Positions 18,772 through 56,415 of a stretch of DNA of 59,944 nt are shown one piece after another. The notes beneath the pieces were generated by a model that was not told where the DNA came from, ran no database searches, and saw nothing but the letters and a program-made list of their open reading frames with translations. The stretch comes from an uncultured Bacteroidales bacterium (GTDB lineage: Bacteria > Bacteroidota > Bacteroidia > Bacteroidales > Muribaculaceae): positions 1-59,944 of the forward strand of contig CAMWLW010000006.1 in NCBI GenBank assembly GCA_947175245.1. The letters are read 5' to 3'. A program made the position numbers and the translations under genes. The number at the start of each line of letters is the position of its first letter. Position 1 is the first letter of the stretch.

Positions 18772-18959
18772 CTCATCGCCATCTCTACGCCCTCCAATCT
18801 CAGCTTCAACAGCATAGAATTGCAAAAGGGGAGCGGAGGGGAGGGATAGCTCGATTGTGCACTGGGTGGCGATGTAATTTTTTTGGGGGGAACGTGGGAA
18901 TTTTGCATGGTTTGGGGCGCGGGAGGTATTATCTTTGCAGCTGAAAAAACAAATAAACC
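18772..18959. other. Intergenic with a lone -7 element
   Basis: No gene. TATCTTTG at 18930-18937 fits the -7 consensus, but TTTG occurs only 15 or 24 bp upstream, so the promoter for the 19046 gene is not fully supported. A T7-G6 run lies near 18877-18890. Confidence 0.4.
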
Positions 18960-19036
18960 TCGGCGGCAGCCGAACTAAACTTTTAAACCTCGGCCTTTAG
19001 GCCGAAATAAACCTCTAAACCTCGACCACAGGTCGA
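18960..19036 (+). repeat. Three tandem AAACCTCG-type hairpins in the leader of the 823-aa gene
   Basis: Stems TCGGC/GCCGA (18960-18973), TCGGCC/GGCCGA (18990-19005) and TCGACC/GGTCGA (19022-19036) each follow AAACC and have 3-4-nt loops. The third stem has compensating changes relative to the first two (GGC to GAC, GCC to GTC), which favours selection for pairing. The last stem ends 9 bp before the ATG at 19046, so it could hide or protect the ribosome binding region. Confidence 0.75.
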
Positions 19037-19045
19037 ATTAATGCT

Positions 19046-21517
19046 ATGAAAAATTCTCTTTTGCCTTCTTTGCCTGAGCTTGCTCACACGTGTCTCAATC
19101 TGCGCCCCGATTTCTCGCTCGGGGCCGACCGTCTGGTACCTGTCATGCCGCCGGCTATGGTGGGGTTGCGGCCGTGGCGCGTGATCGGTATCTTTCAGAC
19201 GCCTGACGATAATGTGATGGAGCTGATGGTCGACGGGCGGGTGCTCGGCGCTTCGGTGCACGCTGACTCGGCGCCTGTGTCTCAGCCTTATGTCATCACC
19301 GGCCGGCTCGAGGGCCGGGCCACGTGTGCCTATCGGGTGGCTGACGGTTTCGTGGTGCTGACCGACAGGTGTATGTATCACGTCGTTTATGACGCGAACG
19401 GTATTCTCAGGGCCGAGACGCCGGTCGACGCGTCGGCCTATCCGACTCTGGTGACACTGGTGACGTCCGAGACTACGGCTCAGGCTGCCGTGGAGGGCTT
19501 CAGGCTGTCGGGCAGCTATGGCCCGACGGTGGTGACGCTCGCGCCCGATGATGCGTCGCGGCTCGACAAGGCCGTTATCGGCGCCTACAGCCGGGCCTCG
19601 GCGACGGCTGTTGCCGACGGTGGGTTTGTGGCGCCGGTGTTTGTGCGTTACAGGCTGATTGACAGCCATAACCGCCTGCTAATGGAGTCGGTGCCCAAGC
19701 TACATGTCCCCACGGGGCGCCATGACTATGGTGCCACGGTGTCGCTGTCGGCCGACCTTACCGGCGGCCGTGTGATGCCGGGTGCCATACCGTTGCCGCT
19801 CTACAGGCTGTCGATGCAGCTGCCGGCGGCCGACGGGTCGGTGGCTCAGCGGCGCATTGCACGCATCGAGGTGCAGCTCACGCCTCAGATTCACCGCGTT
19901 GACCCGTCGCTCGGGGTCATTAACAGGCTCGGTTACGCGGCCTCGGGCGACAGCCTGACGGTCACGCTGCCGGGCAGTGACGCCGCCCTCGCCGACAGGG
20001 TGAGGCGTGCTATGGGGCGGCTCGACTCGTTGTTTGAGACGGTGACTGTCATCGACAATCCGTTTGACGGCTCGCAGGAGGCTCGCACGGTGGCGATACC
20101 GGCTCGCGTCATGACGCTCGACCGCGAGATTGCCGCGCTCGGGCGCGTAGTCAGCGCCGACGATGCCACGTGGCTCTCGCGCTGTCGTCCGCCCCACTCG
20201 GTCACGGCGGCGGTGGGGATGGGGCAGGGTGATGCAACCCTGCTGGGCAACCTCAGTGTCTCGCTCTATGACGGCGCGCCGGTGGCCCACTACCTCAACA
20301 GCGGCTCGGGTGCCGGCGCGGTCGAGACCGTGGCCACGGTGAGCTTCGGCACCGAGCGGCGCGCGGTGGCGGCCTCCCTGTGGACGTCGGGCTACCGGCA
20401 GGCGGCGTTCTCGCCCGTCATCGCCTATCCCGACCCCGAGGCCACATCGATTGAGCTCACCATGCGCGACAGCGAGGGTACTGTCAGCTCGGCCACCTTT
20501 CAGCTCACGCGCTGCGGCCGCTATGCCTGTTACATTGACCCCGGGGTGAAGCCCGTGACGCTCGGGCAGGCCGATGACTATGAGGTGCCACAGGCGTTCG
20601 GTCAGACCGTTCGTTATCCCGGCCACCTCATCAGCTACAGCAGCTCGGCGCCGCTGGCCGACATAGCCGGGCTGAGGGCGGGCCACGGCCGCATCAACGC
20701 CATACACCCCGTGGCGCGCCCGTCGTCGAGCGCATGGCAGTCGTCGCGCTCGCGGTTCCTCATCATGGGCGACGACGGCATCTTCAGCATGGCCATGAAC
20801 GGCCACACCCCGGTCACCCCCGTGCTGCTCGACCCGCGTCCTGTAGCCGGCCCCGGGTCGGTAGCCACGGCCACCGGCCATGAGCGCCGAGTCTTTGTGC
20901 TGGCCGGCCGTGACCTCGTGGCTGTCGACGGCAACAGCGTGCGCACGCTCGCCTCGCGTACAGGCGCATCGATGCTCGCCTGGGTAGCCGCTCACGGCGA
21001 GCTGCTCGCCATCTCGGCCCCTATGGACGGCGTGTCGCCGGCTCTCGTCTACAGGCCCGACTGTGGCGGCTGGTCGATGCGTCAGCTGCCGCCCGTCTCG
21101 GCCGTGTATTCTCACCCCGCCATGTCGCGTGTAACGTCTGAGGCCGAGAACGCCGTCTATGACCTGTGTACCGACGTCGGCAGCCCCACGCGCTGCTGCT
21201 ACACGACCCGGCTGCCGCTGGCGGTGAAACACCCCGTGAGCGGCGTGCCGTTCATCAGCGAGGTTGTGCTTGACCTCACGGCCGCCAACGCGAGCGGCAC
21301 GCTGACCGTGGCCGGCCACAACGGACGCCGCCCGGCCACACCCCTCTCAACGGCCGTCGTGAGCGGTGAGCTGCAGCGCCCGGTCACCCACCGCCTGCTC
21401 ATGCCGCGTCGCACCGACGTCGAGGTCTCGCTCGACGCCATGCTGTCGCCCGATGCCGTTCTCGGCCCGGTCACCTTCACCCCGTCAAACAATCTTAACC
21501 TACCTTCGATACTATGA
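19046..21517 (+). CDS. Unrecognised 823-aa protein upstream of terminase
   Basis: I do not recognise this protein. It has no signal peptide and no membrane helix; the sequence is rich in short beta-type stretches (many V, T, G, S), with no obvious repeats or catalytic motif. Its last 4 bp overlap the terminase start (ATGA), implying translational coupling and a joint function. A phage structural role (for example a head, neck or tail component) is a reasonable guess by neighbourhood only. Codon use and GC content match the GC-rich housekeeping genes rather than a recent prophage. The leader carries three hairpins. Confidence 0.7.
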   Translation: MKNSLLPSLPELAHTCLNLRPDFSLGADRLVPVMPPAMVGLRPWRVIGIFQTPDDNVMELMVDGRVLGASVHADSAPVSQPYVITGRLEGRATCAYRVADGFVVLTDRCMYHVVYDANGILRAETPVDASAYPTLVTLVTSETTAQAAVEGFRLSGSYGPTVVTLAPDDASRLDKAVIGAYSRASATAVADGGFVAPVFVRYRLIDSHNRLLMESVPKLHVPTGRHDYGATVSLSADLTGGRVMPGAIPLPLYRLSMQLPAADGSVAQRRIARIEVQLTPQIHRVDPSLGVINRLGYAASGDSLTVTLPGSDAALADRVRRAMGRLDSLFETVTVIDNPFDGSQEARTVAIPARVMTLDREIAALGRVVSADDATWLSRCRPPHSVTAAVGMGQGDATLLGNLSVSLYDGAPVAHYLNSGSGAGAVETVATVSFGTERRAVAASLWTSGYRQAAFSPVIAYPDPEATSIELTMRDSEGTVSSATFQLTRCGRYACYIDPGVKPVTLGQADDYEVPQAFGQTVRYPGHLISYSSSAPLADIAGLRAGHGRINAIHPVARPSSSAWQSSRSRFLIMGDDGIFSMAMNGHTPVTPVLLDPRPVAGPGSVATATGHERRVFVLAGRDLVAVDGNSVRTLASRTGASMLAWVAAHGELLAISAPMDGVSPALVYRPDCGGWSMRQLPPVSAVYSHPAMSRVTSEAENAVYDLCTDVGSPTRCCYTTRLPLAVKHPVSGVPFISEVVLDLTAANASGTLTVAGHNGRRPATPLSTAVVSGELQRPVTHRLLMPRRTDVEVSLDAMLSPDAVLGPVTFTPSNNLNLPSIL

Positions 21518-23454
21518 CCAACAACCTGAATATAAATACCCAGCTGAGCCGCGACGAGATGTTTCGCCGCATCACAGTACTGAACTATGACCCCGTGACG
21601 GGCGAGGGGTGTATCGGCGCCCGTCAGTGTGTCTCTCACCCCTCGGGCAGCGGCATTGTCAGTATTCCCGACACGATGCTCGCCGACCCCGACTATGGCA
21701 GCGCACAGAACGACCCCACGGCGTTCAACCGACTGCGCACGCGCCACGACTTCGAGTACTGGTGTGTCAAGTGCTGCAAGATACGCGACAAGTCGACCGG
21801 CAAGATTAAGCCCTTCAAGCTCAACGCCCCTCAGCGCTATGTGGCCACGTTGTTTGAGCAGGATCGCGCCGCCGGGCGCCCCATACGCTTCATCATGCTC
21901 AAGGCGCGCCAGTGGGGCGGCTCGACCCTGGTGCAGATGTACATGGCCTGGATACAGTGTACCCAGCAGCAGAACTGGAACTCGCTCATCTGTGCCCACG
22001 TCAAGGACGCGGCCGGCACCATACGCGGCATGTATGCCAACCTGCTGGCCGGTTATCCGTCTGAGATGTGGCTCGGCGACGATAACTCGCGCCCCGAGTT
22101 CAGGCCGTTCGAGCGGTCGACCAACGTGCGCGAGATACCGGGCCGCGGCTGCCGTGTGACCATCGCCTCGAGCGAGAACTACGATGCCGTGCGCGGTGCC
22201 GACTATGCGATGGCCCACCTGTCGGAGGTAGCGTTCTGGTCTGACACCGCGATGCGCTCGCCGGCCGACGTGATGCGCGCCGTGAGCGGTTCGATCAACA
22301 TCAATCCGCTCACCGTGGTGGTGATGGAGAGCACCGCCAACGGCGTCGGCAACTTCTTTCACAAGGAGTGGCTGCGGGCCAGTGCCGGCGAGAGTGACAA
22401 GCGCCCCGTGTTCATACCCTGGTACTACATCGACATCTACTCGACGCCGGTCGACGACCGCGAGAAACTGCTCGGCGAGATCGACGACTACGAGCGCGAA
22501 CTCATGAGCGTCTACGGCTGCACCATCGAGCAGGTGAACTGGTATCACAAGCGTCGCAAGGAGATGGTCGACCACTCGTGCATGAAGGCCGAGTATCCCA
22601 CCAACGACATCGAGGCCTTCACCAACACAGGCAGCACCGTCTTTGCCCCCGAGCATGTGAGTCATGCGGCCACCCACTGCCGTCCGGCCCTCGAGACGGG
22701 CGACATGACCGGGCCCGTGCTGACGGGCTACGAGAGTCTCACCGACATGCGGTTCACCCCACAGTCAAACGGCAATCTGAGCGTGTGGGCGCGCCCCGAG
22801 CCCGATGCCGGCCACTACACGTCGCGCTACATCGTGGCGGTCGACATAGGCGGCCGCTCGGCCAAGTCTGACTACTCGGTCATAGCTGTCTTTGACCGCT
22901 TCTCACAGCCCGGATGTCTCGAACTCGTGGCCCAGTGGCGCGGACACTGTGACCACGACATCCTGGCCTGGAAGGCAGCGGCGATAGCGCGGTGGTATGG
23001 CAAGGCCCTGCTGGTGTATGAGAGCAACACGCTCGAGACCGACAACACCGAGGGCGACCCGTCGATGTTCATACTCAACGACATATCATACCATTATGAC
23101 AACCTATACTACCGCACGCACAGTGACAGCGGCGACCTGCTGGCCCGACGGCGCCCCGGCTTCCACACCAACCGCTCGACCAAGACCACTGCCATCACCT
23201 TGCTCAATGCCGCCCTGCGCGAGCATCGTCTCATAGAGCGCGACAGCGAGTGCTGCAACGAGCTGTCGACCTACCGCAGCCTGCCGGGCGGCGGTTACGG
23301 CGCCATAGCCGGCTGTCACGACGACCTTGTGATAACGCGGGCGCTCGCCTTTGCGGTCGCAGACAGCGAGAGGCTGCTTGAGCCCGGCTGCCCGGGCGAG
23401 TCGGGCGATACGCCCCACTATGGCTCGCCGCCGCGGCTTAAACGTTGCTGGTAA
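21514..23454 (+). CDS. Phage-type terminase large subunit (TerL)
   Basis: TerL is the motor and nuclease that packages phage DNA. The 646-aa product appears intact: a Walker A variant KARQWGGST (130-138), a Walker B-like AMAHLSEVAFW (E238), a coupling-type motif MESTANGVGN (271-280), and an RNase H-fold nuclease with VAVDIGGRSAKSDYSV (D444, D453), YESN (E503) and GCHDDLVI (D603/D604). It overlaps the 823-aa gene and is followed, after its own promoter, by an unknown gene. No small terminase, portal, capsid, tail, integrase or lysis gene is visible nearby, so it is not part of an ordinary prophage. GC content is host-like. Confidence 0.88.
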   Translation: MTNNLNINTQLSRDEMFRRITVLNYDPVTGEGCIGARQCVSHPSGSGIVSIPDTMLADPDYGSAQNDPTAFNRLRTRHDFEYWCVKCCKIRDKSTGKIKPFKLNAPQRYVATLFEQDRAAGRPIRFIMLKARQWGGSTLVQMYMAWIQCTQQQNWNSLICAHVKDAAGTIRGMYANLLAGYPSEMWLGDDNSRPEFRPFERSTNVREIPGRGCRVTIASSENYDAVRGADYAMAHLSEVAFWSDTAMRSPADVMRAVSGSININPLTVVVMESTANGVGNFFHKEWLRASAGESDKRPVFIPWYYIDIYSTPVDDREKLLGEIDDYERELMSVYGCTIEQVNWYHKRRKEMVDHSCMKAEYPTNDIEAFTNTGSTVFAPEHVSHAATHCRPALETGDMTGPVLTGYESLTDMRFTPQSNGNLSVWARPEPDAGHYTSRYIVAVDIGGRSAKSDYSVIAVFDRFSQPGCLELVAQWRGHCDHDILAWKAAAIARWYGKALLVYESNTLETDNTEGDPSMFILNDISYHYDNLYYRTHSDSGDLLARRRPGFHTNRSTKTTAITLLNAALREHRLIERDSECCNELSTYRSLPGGGYGAIAGCHDDLVITRALAFAVADSERLLEPGCPGESGDTPHYGSPPRLKRCW

Positions 23455-37263: not shown

Positions 37264-39075
37264 TTAGAATGATTTTAAAATTTTGTACAGTCTATGATTG
37301 TCTTTACGATCGCGGATTGCAATCCTTATATATTGTCGATCACATGGAAACCCTTTTTTTGTTGAGCAATCTTTGATTAATACATTATGCTCAGTTAGTA
37401 GTTTTAATGTCAGCTGATATGATGTGAAATTTTCTATAATTTCACAAAGGAAATAGTTTGCCTGTGATGGTATTACTCGTAAGAAGGATATCGAATTCAA
37501 CTCATCTTGAAACGTTTTACGTTCTTGGCGGAATTTATTACATGACAGGGTGTAATCTTTTTCGTATTTCCCGTAAATCTGCATATAGAATTCTGCAAAA
37601 GAGTTTATATTCCAAATTCCGACATCTTTTCTTATTATGTTGATCATATCTTTATCTGATGACGCGAGTACTCCCAGTCGGAGACCTGGCACTCCATAAC
37701 TTTTTGATATTGATTTCATCACATAAAGCTGCGGAAAAGCCTCAAGCAATTTGTTGTGCATCAAGGTTGTCTCAGACGCTTGGTCTGCAAAATCTACAAA
37801 CGATTCATCAATTATAAGCCGGATATTATTTTGATTACTCCATTCCAATAATTTAGTCAGGCCATCTTTATTAATGAAATTTCCTGATGGGTTGTCAGGA
37901 TTAACAATCAAAAGATTATTAACAGTATGAATAGAGTAATAATCGATCAATTCTTCAGCAGTATATGAGAATGTTTCATTATTTGGTTTAAATGCAACGA
38001 TTCTATTTGCAGACAGTCGATTAGGATATTCCTCAAACGTAGGATATATTACTCCTACTTTTCCGTCAATATTCTCCATTAGGCTTTTAATAAGTTCTGC
38101 AGCTCCGTTTCCAACAACTGCATACTCATGTCGGATTCCAAAATATTTTGATGCCAGTAAGGAATTGACGTTCATACCTGATGGATAGTCGCGCAATAGT
38201 GACTCAAAGTTTGCCTTCATTTCATCGATCATCCTCTGTTGTGGGAAGTATGGGTTCACAAGATAGCAAAAATCGACAAGTGCAGGATAACGCCAATATC
38301 CGCCATAGGATTGTTGAATTTTTTTTAGTTTTTCTTCAGGCGTAGCAAATATTGTTTCGGCAATCCGTAAATCTTGTACGTCATCAATCTCGTACCAGTG
38401 TTTCCCTGTGATGGAAAGAGCTTTAAGGCCTGTATTATCTATTAATGTAAGCACTCTCAATACCTGTTCATAGTATTCATTCTCCCCCAAAACGCGTATA
38501 TACGCGTCAAGGAATGGAAGATAATGGCTATTAATGAATTCTTGCGAGAATTTATAGATATTAACCGTCTTATAGTAAGATTCTGTATCGGAGTATTTAA
38601 ATGCCTTTTTGGGTATGAAGTTGACAATATTATTATCATCGTCAATTTTTACCATAGTGCCATCCATCCATGTCTCGTATTTGGCGATTAAAGCACAATC
38701 CTTATACTCGCTGTCAACAGCAGCCTGAAGTACACTATCATCAAAAATCAGATCTGATTCCAACAGTAGTGTATCATCTTCGGCCATATAGTTCCTTGCA
38801 AGCCATAAGGAATAAATATTATTTGTTTTGTCATATACCTCATTTTCTACAAATATGATCTTCCTCAATAAATTCTTACTTGAGATATATTCTTTTAGAT
38901 TTTGCCCTTCATATCCAATAACTATTACTATACGTGAAAGAGCCAGCTTAGATAATTGTTCAAGCATTCGATCAATCAACCGTATACCATTAACTTCCAG
39001 CATACATTTGGTATTGTTTGCTGTAAATTCACCTAGCCGGCGACCCATACCGGCTGCTAATATTATTGCCTGCAT
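37264..39075 (-). CDS. PntC-like cytidylyltransferase-aminotransferase fusion
   Basis: A 603-aa fusion. Residues 1-240 are a LicC-type nucleotidyltransferase (LAAGMGRRLG, 6-15; K23; D108 in ESD; D231). Residues about 260-603 are a fold-I aminotransferase (NPDNPSG 392-398; D423; PLP Lys K458 in SISKSYGVPGLRLG). This architecture matches PntC-type proteins, such as that of Treponema denticola, which activate 2-aminoethylphosphonate as CMP derivative with a linked transaminase (known). LicD, the likely transferase, is adjacent. No phosphonate synthesis genes (PEP mutase, phosphonopyruvate decarboxylase) are visible in the window, so phosphocholine- or phosphoethanolamine-type substrates remain possible. 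Gene starts 24 bp after the licD stop. Confidence 0.85.
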   Translation of the reverse strand: MQAIILAAGMGRRLGEFTANNTKCMLEVNGIRLIDRMLEQLSKLALSRIVIVIGYEGQNLKEYISSKNLLRKIIFVENEVYDKTNNIYSLWLARNYMAEDDTLLLESDLIFDDSVLQAAVDSEYKDCALIAKYETWMDGTMVKIDDDNNIVNFIPKKAFKYSDTESYYKTVNIYKFSQEFINSHYLPFLDAYIRVLGENEYYEQVLRVLTLIDNTGLKALSITGKHWYEIDDVQDLRIAETIFATPEEKLKKIQQSYGGYWRYPALVDFCYLVNPYFPQQRMIDEMKANFESLLRDYPSGMNVNSLLASKYFGIRHEYAVVGNGAAELIKSLMENIDGKVGVIYPTFEEYPNRLSANRIVAFKPNNETFSYTAEELIDYYSIHTVNNLLIVNPDNPSGNFINKDGLTKLLEWSNQNNIRLIIDESFVDFADQASETTLMHNKLLEAFPQLYVMKSISKSYGVPGLRLGVLASSDKDMINIIRKDVGIWNINSFAEFYMQIYGKYEKDYTLSCNKFRQERKTFQDELNSISFLRVIPSQANYFLCEIIENFTSYQLTLKLLTEHNVLIKDCSTKKGFPCDRQYIRIAIRDRKDNHRLYKILKSF

Positions 39076-53833: not shown

Positions 53834-55576
53834 TTATTTTCCTAAAATTTTCTTTACTGTTTCCACTCCTTTTCTCCCGATAGCGTTGCGTATCTTACTT
53901 TCAAGTACACTTTTCCCATCGACTTTTAGGTTTCGAATTATGTGCAGCGCCTCGGTTTCAAGTTTTGAATCAGTGAACACTTCCATCAGCTTAGGACGTG
54001 ACGTGTTCGTTGTATCAGTGAATATTGGAGCCAGTGCCGTGATATCATCTTTAGAAGATGCAGTCATATACTCAAATCCAAGATCTTCAGCATAATGCTT
54101 TACAAGCTCAGACGATTTGTTCCCATAATGACCCGCAGCTGCCATGTAAATGTCGGCATCTTCTCCGAAAGCATAGGCAGGATGGTTATAGTTTGTGAAT
54201 TCAGTTCCGCGGCCGTTGTTTATCAGCAGTATTCTGAGATTTGAAGGAAGATGTCTGTTACCTAATGAATTCAGATCGTAGAAGAATGCGAGGTCTCCTA
54301 CTATAGTAAAATGTATCTTATCGGGTTGTGCCAATGCCCCGCCAATAGCTGTTGACAATGGACCGTCAATACCGAAGCCACCAACATTACAGTATGAATT
54401 CGCAGACAATGGAATTTCAAAAAAGTTCCATGAGCGTAAAGAATTTAGAATGCCGTAATGCATTATGGAATTTTCCGGAATCATCTTTGAAAGCATCATT
54501 GCTACCCATATATTGGAAAAAGGCAGAGATTCAGGAATCAGGTTATATATCGACTGATAAGTTTCGTGGCACGCATTAAGATATGATGCCTTTTCTTTCT
54601 GCAATAAGCCTGCATAATGATTAAAAAAGTCTAGTTCGCGCATCTCAAATACCGCTTCAGGAAGACCATAAACACTTCTGATCAGACCGTCCTCACAGAC
54701 TCTCCATTTTCGGCCAGAATTAGGCTGTGTATATGCTCCGCTCACACCTCCGATATGAATCATGAGGTCTAATTTTCCCAGATTTGATGTCCAGTTGTCC
54801 TGAGAGAGTACTAGAGGATACAGGAATCTATATTTCCCTTTATAGTTGCTTGTATGGTCACAAAAGACAACCGCTCCTGTCTTGGAGCAGAATTTATCGA
54901 TAGCTTCAGTCAATTCTGATGACATTGCCGAATGTGAACCGACGAATATTCCGATTCTACCGTCGGATATAGGTGGCAGTGTGTCGAATATGCGGTAATA
55001 GCCGATTTTCTTCACGGCGGGTAGTTCCTTAACCGAGAAATCCTTATCGTAAGAAGTCTCGAGATTGATATGTACCGGGCCGCCGCCATTCCTCTTAAGA
55101 TAATGGAGCGCTTCGTTTGTCTTCAGTACGGCGAATGTGTAGTCAGCCTTATCTTTTACAATAGGAATGTGGATGCTATAATTAGCGGTATCTTTAGGCA
55201 TAGAACTCCTGTCAATTACCTGTGGTACGAGTTGGCCGATAATTCCCCTTGGTTGAGTGGCTGTTATGGCAAGTACCGGTAGTTTACGATAATATGCTTC
55301 TGTAAGTGCAGGGTAGTAATTGCGGGAAGCGGTAGCGCCAGTACAAGTGATCACAACCGGCTCTCCGCTCTCTTCGGCCATGCCTATAGCCATGTAGGCA
55401 GCTGATCTTTCCTCGGGTGCGGAATACACTTTAAAAAATGGGTCATGCTGCAGGCATGCCACAAATGTCAGATTTGTTGTGCCTGGAGAAGCGATAATTC
55501 TACAGATTCCATACTCTTTCAAAAGAGCTACAACTACTTGAACCTGTTGTTCAACAGAATAATATTTTTGTGCCAT
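53834..55576 (-). CDS. MenD-like thiamine-diphosphate enzyme
   Basis: The 580-aa enzyme has the full MenD/pyruvate-decarboxylase layout: the catalytic Glu in YSAPEERSAAYMAIGMA, the central Rossmann part (IGIFVGSHSAMSSE), and the ThDP/Mg site GDLAFFYDLNSLGNRHL with INNGRG. Related ThDP enzymes sit in Bacteroidales capsule loci and are not needed for menaquinone. It may decarboxylate a 2-keto acid and add the acyl anion to an acceptor that the adjoining SDR then reduces. Start is ATG 55576 (MAQKYY), 2 bp after the SDR stop; the longer upstream frame overlaps the SDR. Confidence 0.82.
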   Translation of the reverse strand: MAQKYYSVEQQVQVVVALLKEYGICRIIASPGTTNLTFVACLQHDPFFKVYSAPEERSAAYMAIGMAEESGEPVVITCTGATASRNYYPALTEAYYRKLPVLAITATQPRGIIGQLVPQVIDRSSMPKDTANYSIHIPIVKDKADYTFAVLKTNEALHYLKRNGGGPVHINLETSYDKDFSVKELPAVKKIGYYRIFDTLPPISDGRIGIFVGSHSAMSSELTEAIDKFCSKTGAVVFCDHTSNYKGKYRFLYPLVLSQDNWTSNLGKLDLMIHIGGVSGAYTQPNSGRKWRVCEDGLIRSVYGLPEAVFEMRELDFFNHYAGLLQKEKASYLNACHETYQSIYNLIPESLPFSNIWVAMMLSKMIPENSIMHYGILNSLRSWNFFEIPLSANSYCNVGGFGIDGPLSTAIGGALAQPDKIHFTIVGDLAFFYDLNSLGNRHLPSNLRILLINNGRGTEFTNYNHPAYAFGEDADIYMAAAGHYGNKSSELVKHYAEDLGFEYMTASSKDDITALAPIFTDTTNTSRPKLMEVFTDSKLETEALHIIRNLKVDGKSVLESKIRNAIGRKGVETVKKILGK

Positions 55577-55578
55577 AA

Positions 55579-56415
55579 TTATTTTTTCCAGCGTGCGTTG
55601 ACTGTTTGCGCATTGTTGCAAGTTATTATCTGGCCAGAAATACAGTCTGATGCATCTGATAAGAGAAATGCTGCAACTTCGGCAATTTCCTCAGGCAGGT
55701 AGAATCGCCCTTGACCGTATGTTCCGGCGTAGAGATTGCCTTCCGAAGATATGCCGGTCATAGCCGAAGCTGTAATTCCTGGTGCAATAGCGTTTACACG
55801 AATACCTTTATTCTTGAGCAAAAAAGCCATACCTTCCACCATACTGTTAGTAGCCGCTTTTGTAAAACCGTAAGGGCGAATGTCGCAAGTATTACCTGTT
55901 TCAGAAGATATGAAAAGTATATTTCCTGACTGATTGTTGCTTACAAGATATTTTATGAATTTTTGTGTTAAAAAAAAAGGTCCTTTCAGATTCGTATCAA
56001 ATTGAGTGTCCCAACTTTTAGGGGTTACATCTAAAACAGTACTTTCATGCAAAGAAATACCGGCATTATTAACAATGCAGTCTATCTTACCGAATTCTTG
56101 AACTATACTATCAATGAACGTCTCAAAAACTTCAATTTCACAAATATCCAAAACCCTGTAGAAACAATTTATCTCTTTCGAAGCTTTTATCAAGGCCGTT
56201 TCATCGCGTCCAGTAATGATAACTTGAGCTCCCTCAGCTGCAACCTTTTTAGCAATCGCTAAACCGATCCCCTTACTTCCACCTGTTACTATAATCGTCC
56301 TACCATTAAGTGATTCATTTGCATCGATTAAATTAATATTCGTAGTCACTATATTGCTAGGAATACCCTTAAACATATAAAGAATACTTCTTTTAAGGAT
56401 TTTCATTAAATTCAT
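55579..56415 (-). CDS. Short-chain dehydrogenase/reductase
   Basis: The 278-aa classical SDR has TGGSKGIGLAIA (NAD(P)-binding), NNAG, and the catalytic S-Y-K set ISSETG / YGFTKAA, plus APGITASAMTGI. Probably reduces or oxidises the product of the MenD-like enzyme encoded next. A T9 run in the coding strand (55970-55978, in GPFFLT) is a possible slippage site. Overlaps the PP-loop gene by 4 bp. Confidence 0.88.
   Translation of the reverse strand: MNLMKILKRSILYMFKGIPSNIVTTNINLIDANESLNGRTIIVTGGSKGIGLAIAKKVAAEGAQVIITGRDETALIKASKEINCFYRVLDICEIEVFETFIDSIVQEFGKIDCIVNNAGISLHESTVLDVTPKSWDTQFDTNLKGPFFLTQKFIKYLVSNNQSGNILFISSETGNTCDIRPYGFTKAATNSMVEGMAFLLKNKGIRVNAIAPGITASAMTGISSEGNLYAGTYGQGRFYLPEEIAEVAAFLLSDASDCISGQIITCNNAQTVNARWKK

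Follow-up and report, generated by a model that had tools for sequence, protein, structure and literature searches.

The window, which is the whole analysed stretch of 59,944 nucleotides from the genome of an uncultured member of the Muribaculaceae (G000), contains on its forward strand two reading frames, at 19046–21517 (823 amino acids) and 21514–23454 (646 amino acids), both of which are open and share an ATGA overlap of 4 bp. The downstream frame encodes TerL, the large terminase subunit, as shown by its match to phrog_2 ('terminase large subunit'; E = 5e-20) in PHROG; no Pfam model matched it. The Walker A and Walker B motifs of the ATPase and the acidic residues of the nuclease are all intact, as had been read originally from Walker A, Glu238, Asp444, Glu503 and Asp603/604, and in the alignment K130, E238, D444 and D603 are invariant across the members of the family, with E503 present in 54 of 55 and lost in genome G013. 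As far as inspected, the surroundings of the pair consist of housekeeping genes (tRNA-Glu, rpsT, a YfhO-like gene and XerD), with neither a portal or capsid nor a small terminase seen among them, in keeping with the description of this TerL as an orphan, and no contiguous phage block with integrase or replication genes is present at the locus. The GC content of the pair is about 66%, compared with 60–64% in the flanks, which is unlike a fresh AT-rich insert and agrees with the earlier view that the pair is not a fresh prophage. Upstream of the pair, also on the forward strand, are a promoter element in the −33 region (GTGGGAATTTTGCATGG, 18894–18910), whose pattern the genome contains ten times, a −7 box of the Bacteroidota TAnnTTTG type (TATCTTTGCA, 18930–18939) recognized by sequence reading and pattern search, and a 5′ leader (18955–19038) that reads as three hairpin-like units of the form CCTCGGC..GCCGAA.

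The AlphaFold2 model of the 823-residue protein (pLDDT 88, pTM 0.81) has a β-propeller nozzle fold, and the best solved match in Foldseek is the tail of SU10 (E = 3e-14). In VIA comparisons the model aligned with the tail proteins of Pa223, Pan3, P22 (gp10) and SU10 and with the crAss001 muzzle with Z scores of 20–23 over 380–506 residues, whereas generic β-propellers ranked lower, with Z scores of 18–19 over about 280 residues. Structure prediction, which had been proposed for this protein, thus identifies it as a predicted podoviral tail nozzle of the P22 gp10, T7 gp12 and crAss001 gp44 class; a homolog is encoded by a prophage, L066. The original prediction had described the two proteins as fused by translation and suggested a two-component unit. 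The 4-bp overlap stands, but there is nothing beyond this overlap, and the nozzle gene, which usually adjoins TerL, is located apart from it in G014, G009, G031, G027, G029 and others. The linkage of the two genes is not obligatory, and the 823-residue protein is predicted to be the nozzle of a tail and not a partner of the motor. A two-component defence or DNA-handling device was rejected because the partner is a nozzle and because the genes are separated in some genomes.

The other genes of such a particle are located elsewhere in the same genome, as had been suggested for a gene-transfer agent (GTA). In genomes G026 and G028 the TerL regions also contain a capsid gene, a gene for a ring/adaptor-like protein of about 180 amino acids and a portal gene, and profiles built from these genes were used to search the genomes of the family. 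The capsid and portal profiles matched nearly every family genome once, mostly on a contig other than that of TerL; the capsid corresponds to Pfam SU10_MCP (E = 1.6e-47) and the portal to phrog_156 (E = 5e-31). In G000 the capsid, portal, ring/adaptor, short scaffold and candidate small terminase (TerS) are each encoded once, on contigs other than that of the window: contig C3 carries scaffold, capsid, ring and portal in this order, contig C109 carries the TerS candidate followed by its partner gene K9, and a lysis cassette is found on contig C20. In 36 of 39 phage contigs the TerS candidate (the K6 family, about 140 amino acids) is found no more than 1.6 kb from TerL; its model is all-helical (pLDDT 90), and a search of PDB structures with this model gave no match. 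At four loci a spanin-like gene encoding a lipoprotein-like protein of 143–162 amino acids with a C-terminal membrane segment is found between the TerS candidate and K9.

In G028 the eight genes are all together in a single same-strand cluster of 10.5 kb (L056, 3137–13644), and the IMG/VR contig L207 contains a similar, near-complete cluster, so the dispersal in the other genomes appears to be secondary. L207 and a further contig, L206, are catalogued as viral and carry this compact cluster with a short portal, but they are probably bacterial chromosome; the TerLs of both group inside the family clade and resemble those of its members. Compared with phage homologs, the portal of the family is shortened (median 472 versus 658 amino acids), as is the scaffold (131 versus about 248 amino acids, with only two phage proteins matched). 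The short scaffold and portal could, judging from their lengths, produce a smaller head. They could also remodel a capsid, as would be expected if the genes belonged to a phage satellite or piracy system exchanging capsid and motor parts with a helper; this is extremely unlikely, since no integrase, excision or replication unit was seen with the particle genes, the loci are unlinked, and G000 has one copy each of TerL, capsid and portal with no helper phage of a matching type seen in the genome.

The search covered 61 genomes around G000, comprising 37 of the Muribaculaceae and 24 of other families of the order. TerL, the capsid and the TerS candidate are each present in 34 of the 37 family genomes and the portal is present in 33; two genomes, G034 and G036, have a TerL solely of a different prophage type, and their exclusion reduces the count for TerL to 32 of 37. 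Outside the family, matches were found in only two of the 24 genomes, G055 (an intact prophage) and G057. TerL is almost always single-copy in the family, and at least 552 relatives exist in public genomes, those with titles being for the most part gut MAGs and isolates of the Muribaculaceae or Bacteroidales and including the cultured Heminiphilus faecis AM35. Recurrence of the same neighbours beside the pair in other Bacteroidales had been proposed as a check; the neighbours vary in nearly every genome, which also rules out the window as the edge of a prophage; nor are the relatives marked by broken copies, the frames being open, mostly single and under purifying selection in 34 of the 37 family genomes.

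The median dN/dS is 0.12 for TerL (25 pairs), 0.24 for the capsid (eight pairs) and 0.18 for the portal (three pairs), and single comparisons for the nozzle, ring and TerS candidate gave 0.18–0.28; these values are well below 1, and the particle genes are under purifying selection. It is very unlikely that the genes are the scattered, decaying and now functionless remnants of an old prophage: the genes are apart and pieces are missing in several genomes (G003 lacks capsid and portal; G008, G019 and G025 are incomplete, several of these being MAGs), the TerL of G013 has the active-site change and the nozzle of G032 is only partial, but the open frames, the low dN/dS and the conserved active sites argue against decay, as do the joint retention of the same gene set and the common promoters of unlinked loci described below.

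In the TerL tree the family forms one clade (support 0.994) apart from 77 TerLs of phage contigs and from the copies in true prophages. The concatenated tree has four of 18 splits in common with that of rpoB, against a random mean of 0.27 and a maximum of 4 in 2000; the Mantel correlation with rpoB is weak. Ubiquity and monophyly suggest vertical descent, with a congruence to rpoB that exceeds chance and is partial. The weak congruence and the varying neighbourhoods would also be expected of a prophage module that had been reacquired recurrently, with an independent phage origin in each lineage. We give this very little credence, because the TerLs of the family form a single clade, because the shortened portal and scaffold are common derived traits and because the true prophages of G009, G034, G036 and G055 differ from the family set in type.

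The window operon is also tied to unlinked genes through its promoter. The pattern TTTTGCA-N22-TATCTTTGCA occurs at ten sites in G000 with 0–1 mismatch, compared with 0 and 1 site for the reversed-pattern control at up to two mismatches, and the sites also have in common a GTGGGAA that precedes the element. They are located upstream of nozzle–TerL, of the C20 lysis cassette and of eight copies of a gene for a small basic protein; five of these copies have similar tandem CCTCGGC..GCCGAA units in their 5′ leaders. The C20 cassette consists of a holin (Phage_holin_4_1, just under the Pfam cut-off), an Amidase_2 endolysin (E = 3e-19) and an Rz-like lipoprotein (spanin). At the scaffold promoter of G000 the element is not clearly at the right spacing.

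Across genomes, the upstream regions of TerL/nozzle and of scaffold/capsid gave a mean best ungapped match of 12.1 within a genome and of 9.5 between genomes (permutation p = 0.0002, n = 26). In a control with regions upstream of other genes from the genome concerned, the capsid locus was the strict best partner in nine of 26 genomes against 1.8 expected (Mann–Whitney p = 7e-6). The promoter elements are therefore common within a genome and different between genomes, i.e. lineage-specific, and where the sharing is clear the element lies about one promoter spacing upstream of a TAnnTTTG −7 box. Many genomes have no clear sharing, so that some lineages show the effect strongly and in others it is either missing or escaped detection, and no promoter shared with the TerS locus was found (p = 0.78 and 0.11). 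In H. faecis (G020) thirteen sites with at most two mismatches precede nozzle–TerL, scaffold–capsid, an M15 peptidase endolysin and DUF6291 genes. G010 has six sites (control zero), including those of two AAA-type ATPases, a holin-like protein and DUF6291, and in G018 three examined DUF6291 copies bear the same element as the nozzle and the scaffold. In G014, where nozzle and TerL are separated, eighteen sites were found (control 0); both of these genes have one, as do the capsid locus, a GH108 endolysin and a DnaD/DUF6291 protein. About ten of these eighteen lie in a repeat of about 480 bp without a clear gene, so not every one is a functional regulon member; the repeat may stem from cassettes that have decayed, encode small RNAs or serve as a packaging site, and the sites before metH and before a gene of the argG region may be due to chance. 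The lysis enzymes vary by lineage (amidase, GH108 or M15); GH108 was considered as a universal endolysin and rejected, being present in only nine of the 61 genomes. Since the loci are conserved and under purifying selection and several have a common lineage-specific element, they appear to form one regulon.

H. faecis has twelve DUF6291 genes. The small basic protein and DUF6291 cassettes are units of about 500–800 bp with fairly sharp ends, and in H. faecis near-identical cassettes of promoter and gene are found at many sites (nine are noted here), as though the cassettes had multiplied as whole units and no transposase had been involved. In hhalign, the alignment of DUF6291 with the small basic proteins of G000 has a probability of 66% (E = 6e-5), so the link between the two is tentative.

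The nozzle–TerL pair is thus probably the operon for the tail nozzle and packaging motor of a domesticated podovirus, which now acts as a dispersed, co-regulated, short-tailed GTA. The original prediction had offered a domesticated packaging motor of a GTA with its other genes elsewhere, and this is supported by the genome searches and by the promoter element common to the lysis cassette and the window operon. GTAs have been defined by Caudoviricete-derived proteins that form phage-like particles packaging mostly random host DNA, by a fully endogenized genome, often in multiple loci, by a small head that prevents full packaging of their own genes, by mostly vertical inheritance and co-diversification with the host, and by delivery of the DNA to other cells (PMC9662315). 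As regards the protein part, Caudoviricete-derived TerL, portal, SU10-type capsid, nozzle, ring and scaffold are all present, and the loci of G000 on C3, C6, C20 and C109 are flanked by host genes; these unlinked loci argue against co-packaging of the system's own genes in one fragment. Particle formation, a DNA cargo and transfer are what we infer from this gene content. Under some condition the regulon would be expressed in a subpopulation of cells; capsid, scaffold and portal would form a small procapsid, which TerL and the TerS-like protein would load with host DNA in a headful manner; the ring and nozzle would seal it into a short-tailed particle; and the lysis cassette would release the particle, the DNA of which would reach related cells. 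The copies of the small basic protein or DUF6291 might, as a speculation, multiply the host DNA or tag it ahead of packaging. Doubtful in our view is a more specific version, in which the scattered virion, motor and lysis genes of a family-wide GTA would be joined only by the promoter element, the eight to twelve replication-initiator-like copies would serve as local origins amplifying host DNA before headful packaging, and the element and its regulator would co-evolve in each lineage.

The same motor, capsid, nozzle and lysis genes would also be present in a domesticated, DNA-filled killing or altruistic-lysis particle of the PBSX type, which would lyse cells and not deliver its DNA. No receptor-binding or DNA-ejection protein was found, as this alternative would have it, and such behaviour has been raised for the related FpGTA (PMC12946183). 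It is nevertheless unlikely, since a tailocin-like killer would not need the conserved nozzle and the complete nuclease and ATPase of TerL, and no sheath or toxin gene was seen. The GTA reading fits better than any of these rivals because a virus-derived, family-wide kit with neither an integrase nor a replication block is distributed over several loci and is tied by promoters to lysis genes.

Among described systems, FpGTA of Faecalibacterium comes closest; it is likewise encoded by podovirus-type genes of a gut bacterium and has TerS, TerL, portal, scaffold and capsid in an operon of 10.5 kb and structural and lysis genes in a second locus (PMC12946183). It was found in all Faecalibacterium genomes examined, and microscopy and proteomics of its particles exist (PMC12946183). 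FpGTA belongs to another phylum and is confined to one genus and two operons, whereas the Muribaculaceae set extends over a whole Bacteroidota family in several loci and, unlike FpGTA, has lineage-specific promoter elements and multi-copy small basic or DUF6291 genes; FpGTA is known from particles and the Muribaculaceae set from genes. RcGTA and the other alphaproteobacterial GTAs have a siphovirus-type tail and one main structural cluster, whereas the Muribaculaceae set has a nozzle-type short tail and its core itself is split. The two are alike in being Caudoviricete-derived, distributed over several loci and conserved in their hosts (PMC9662315). In BaGTA of Bartonella, host DNA packaging has been linked to run-off replication (PMC2697382, PMC6899734), which the replication-initiator-like (DnaD-like/DUF6291) genes under the common promoter recall; the Muribaculaceae set differs in having many dispersed copies, for which a part in replication is hypothetical. 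The closest named phage relatives are the Bacteroides phages BF1-TP2, BKO1-TP3 and BS-TP4 (37–41% identity in TerL and 37–39% in the capsid), which are temperate phages of 64–68 kb with a full gene set and a full-length portal, whereas the Muribaculaceae set is a reduced core. The TerL of BF1-TP2 (PQ571263.1, 40117–42144) is mislabelled as 'tail spike protein', as are those of BKO1-TP3 and BS-TP4.

No GTA of the Bacteroidota was described in the literature searched, the scope of which left out most subscription papers and preprints. The Muribaculaceae rank among the major families in the mouse gut, and a conserved DNA-transfer particle in them would, if true, provide a path by which genes are exchanged there. 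Prophage-finding programs may miss the system because its genes are rarely together, and promoter elements that co-vary between unlinked loci provide a way of finding regulon members from sequence. The idea of a GTA is directly testable, since the cultured H. faecis AM35 carries the set.

In the remainder of the window, a surface-polysaccharide locus of low GC content (36–45%) occupies 30200–59130 on the reverse strand. It includes a nucleotidyltransferase joined to an aminotransferase (37264–39075) and a TPP enzyme (53834–55621), hinting at a phosphonate (aminoethylphosphonate) decoration.
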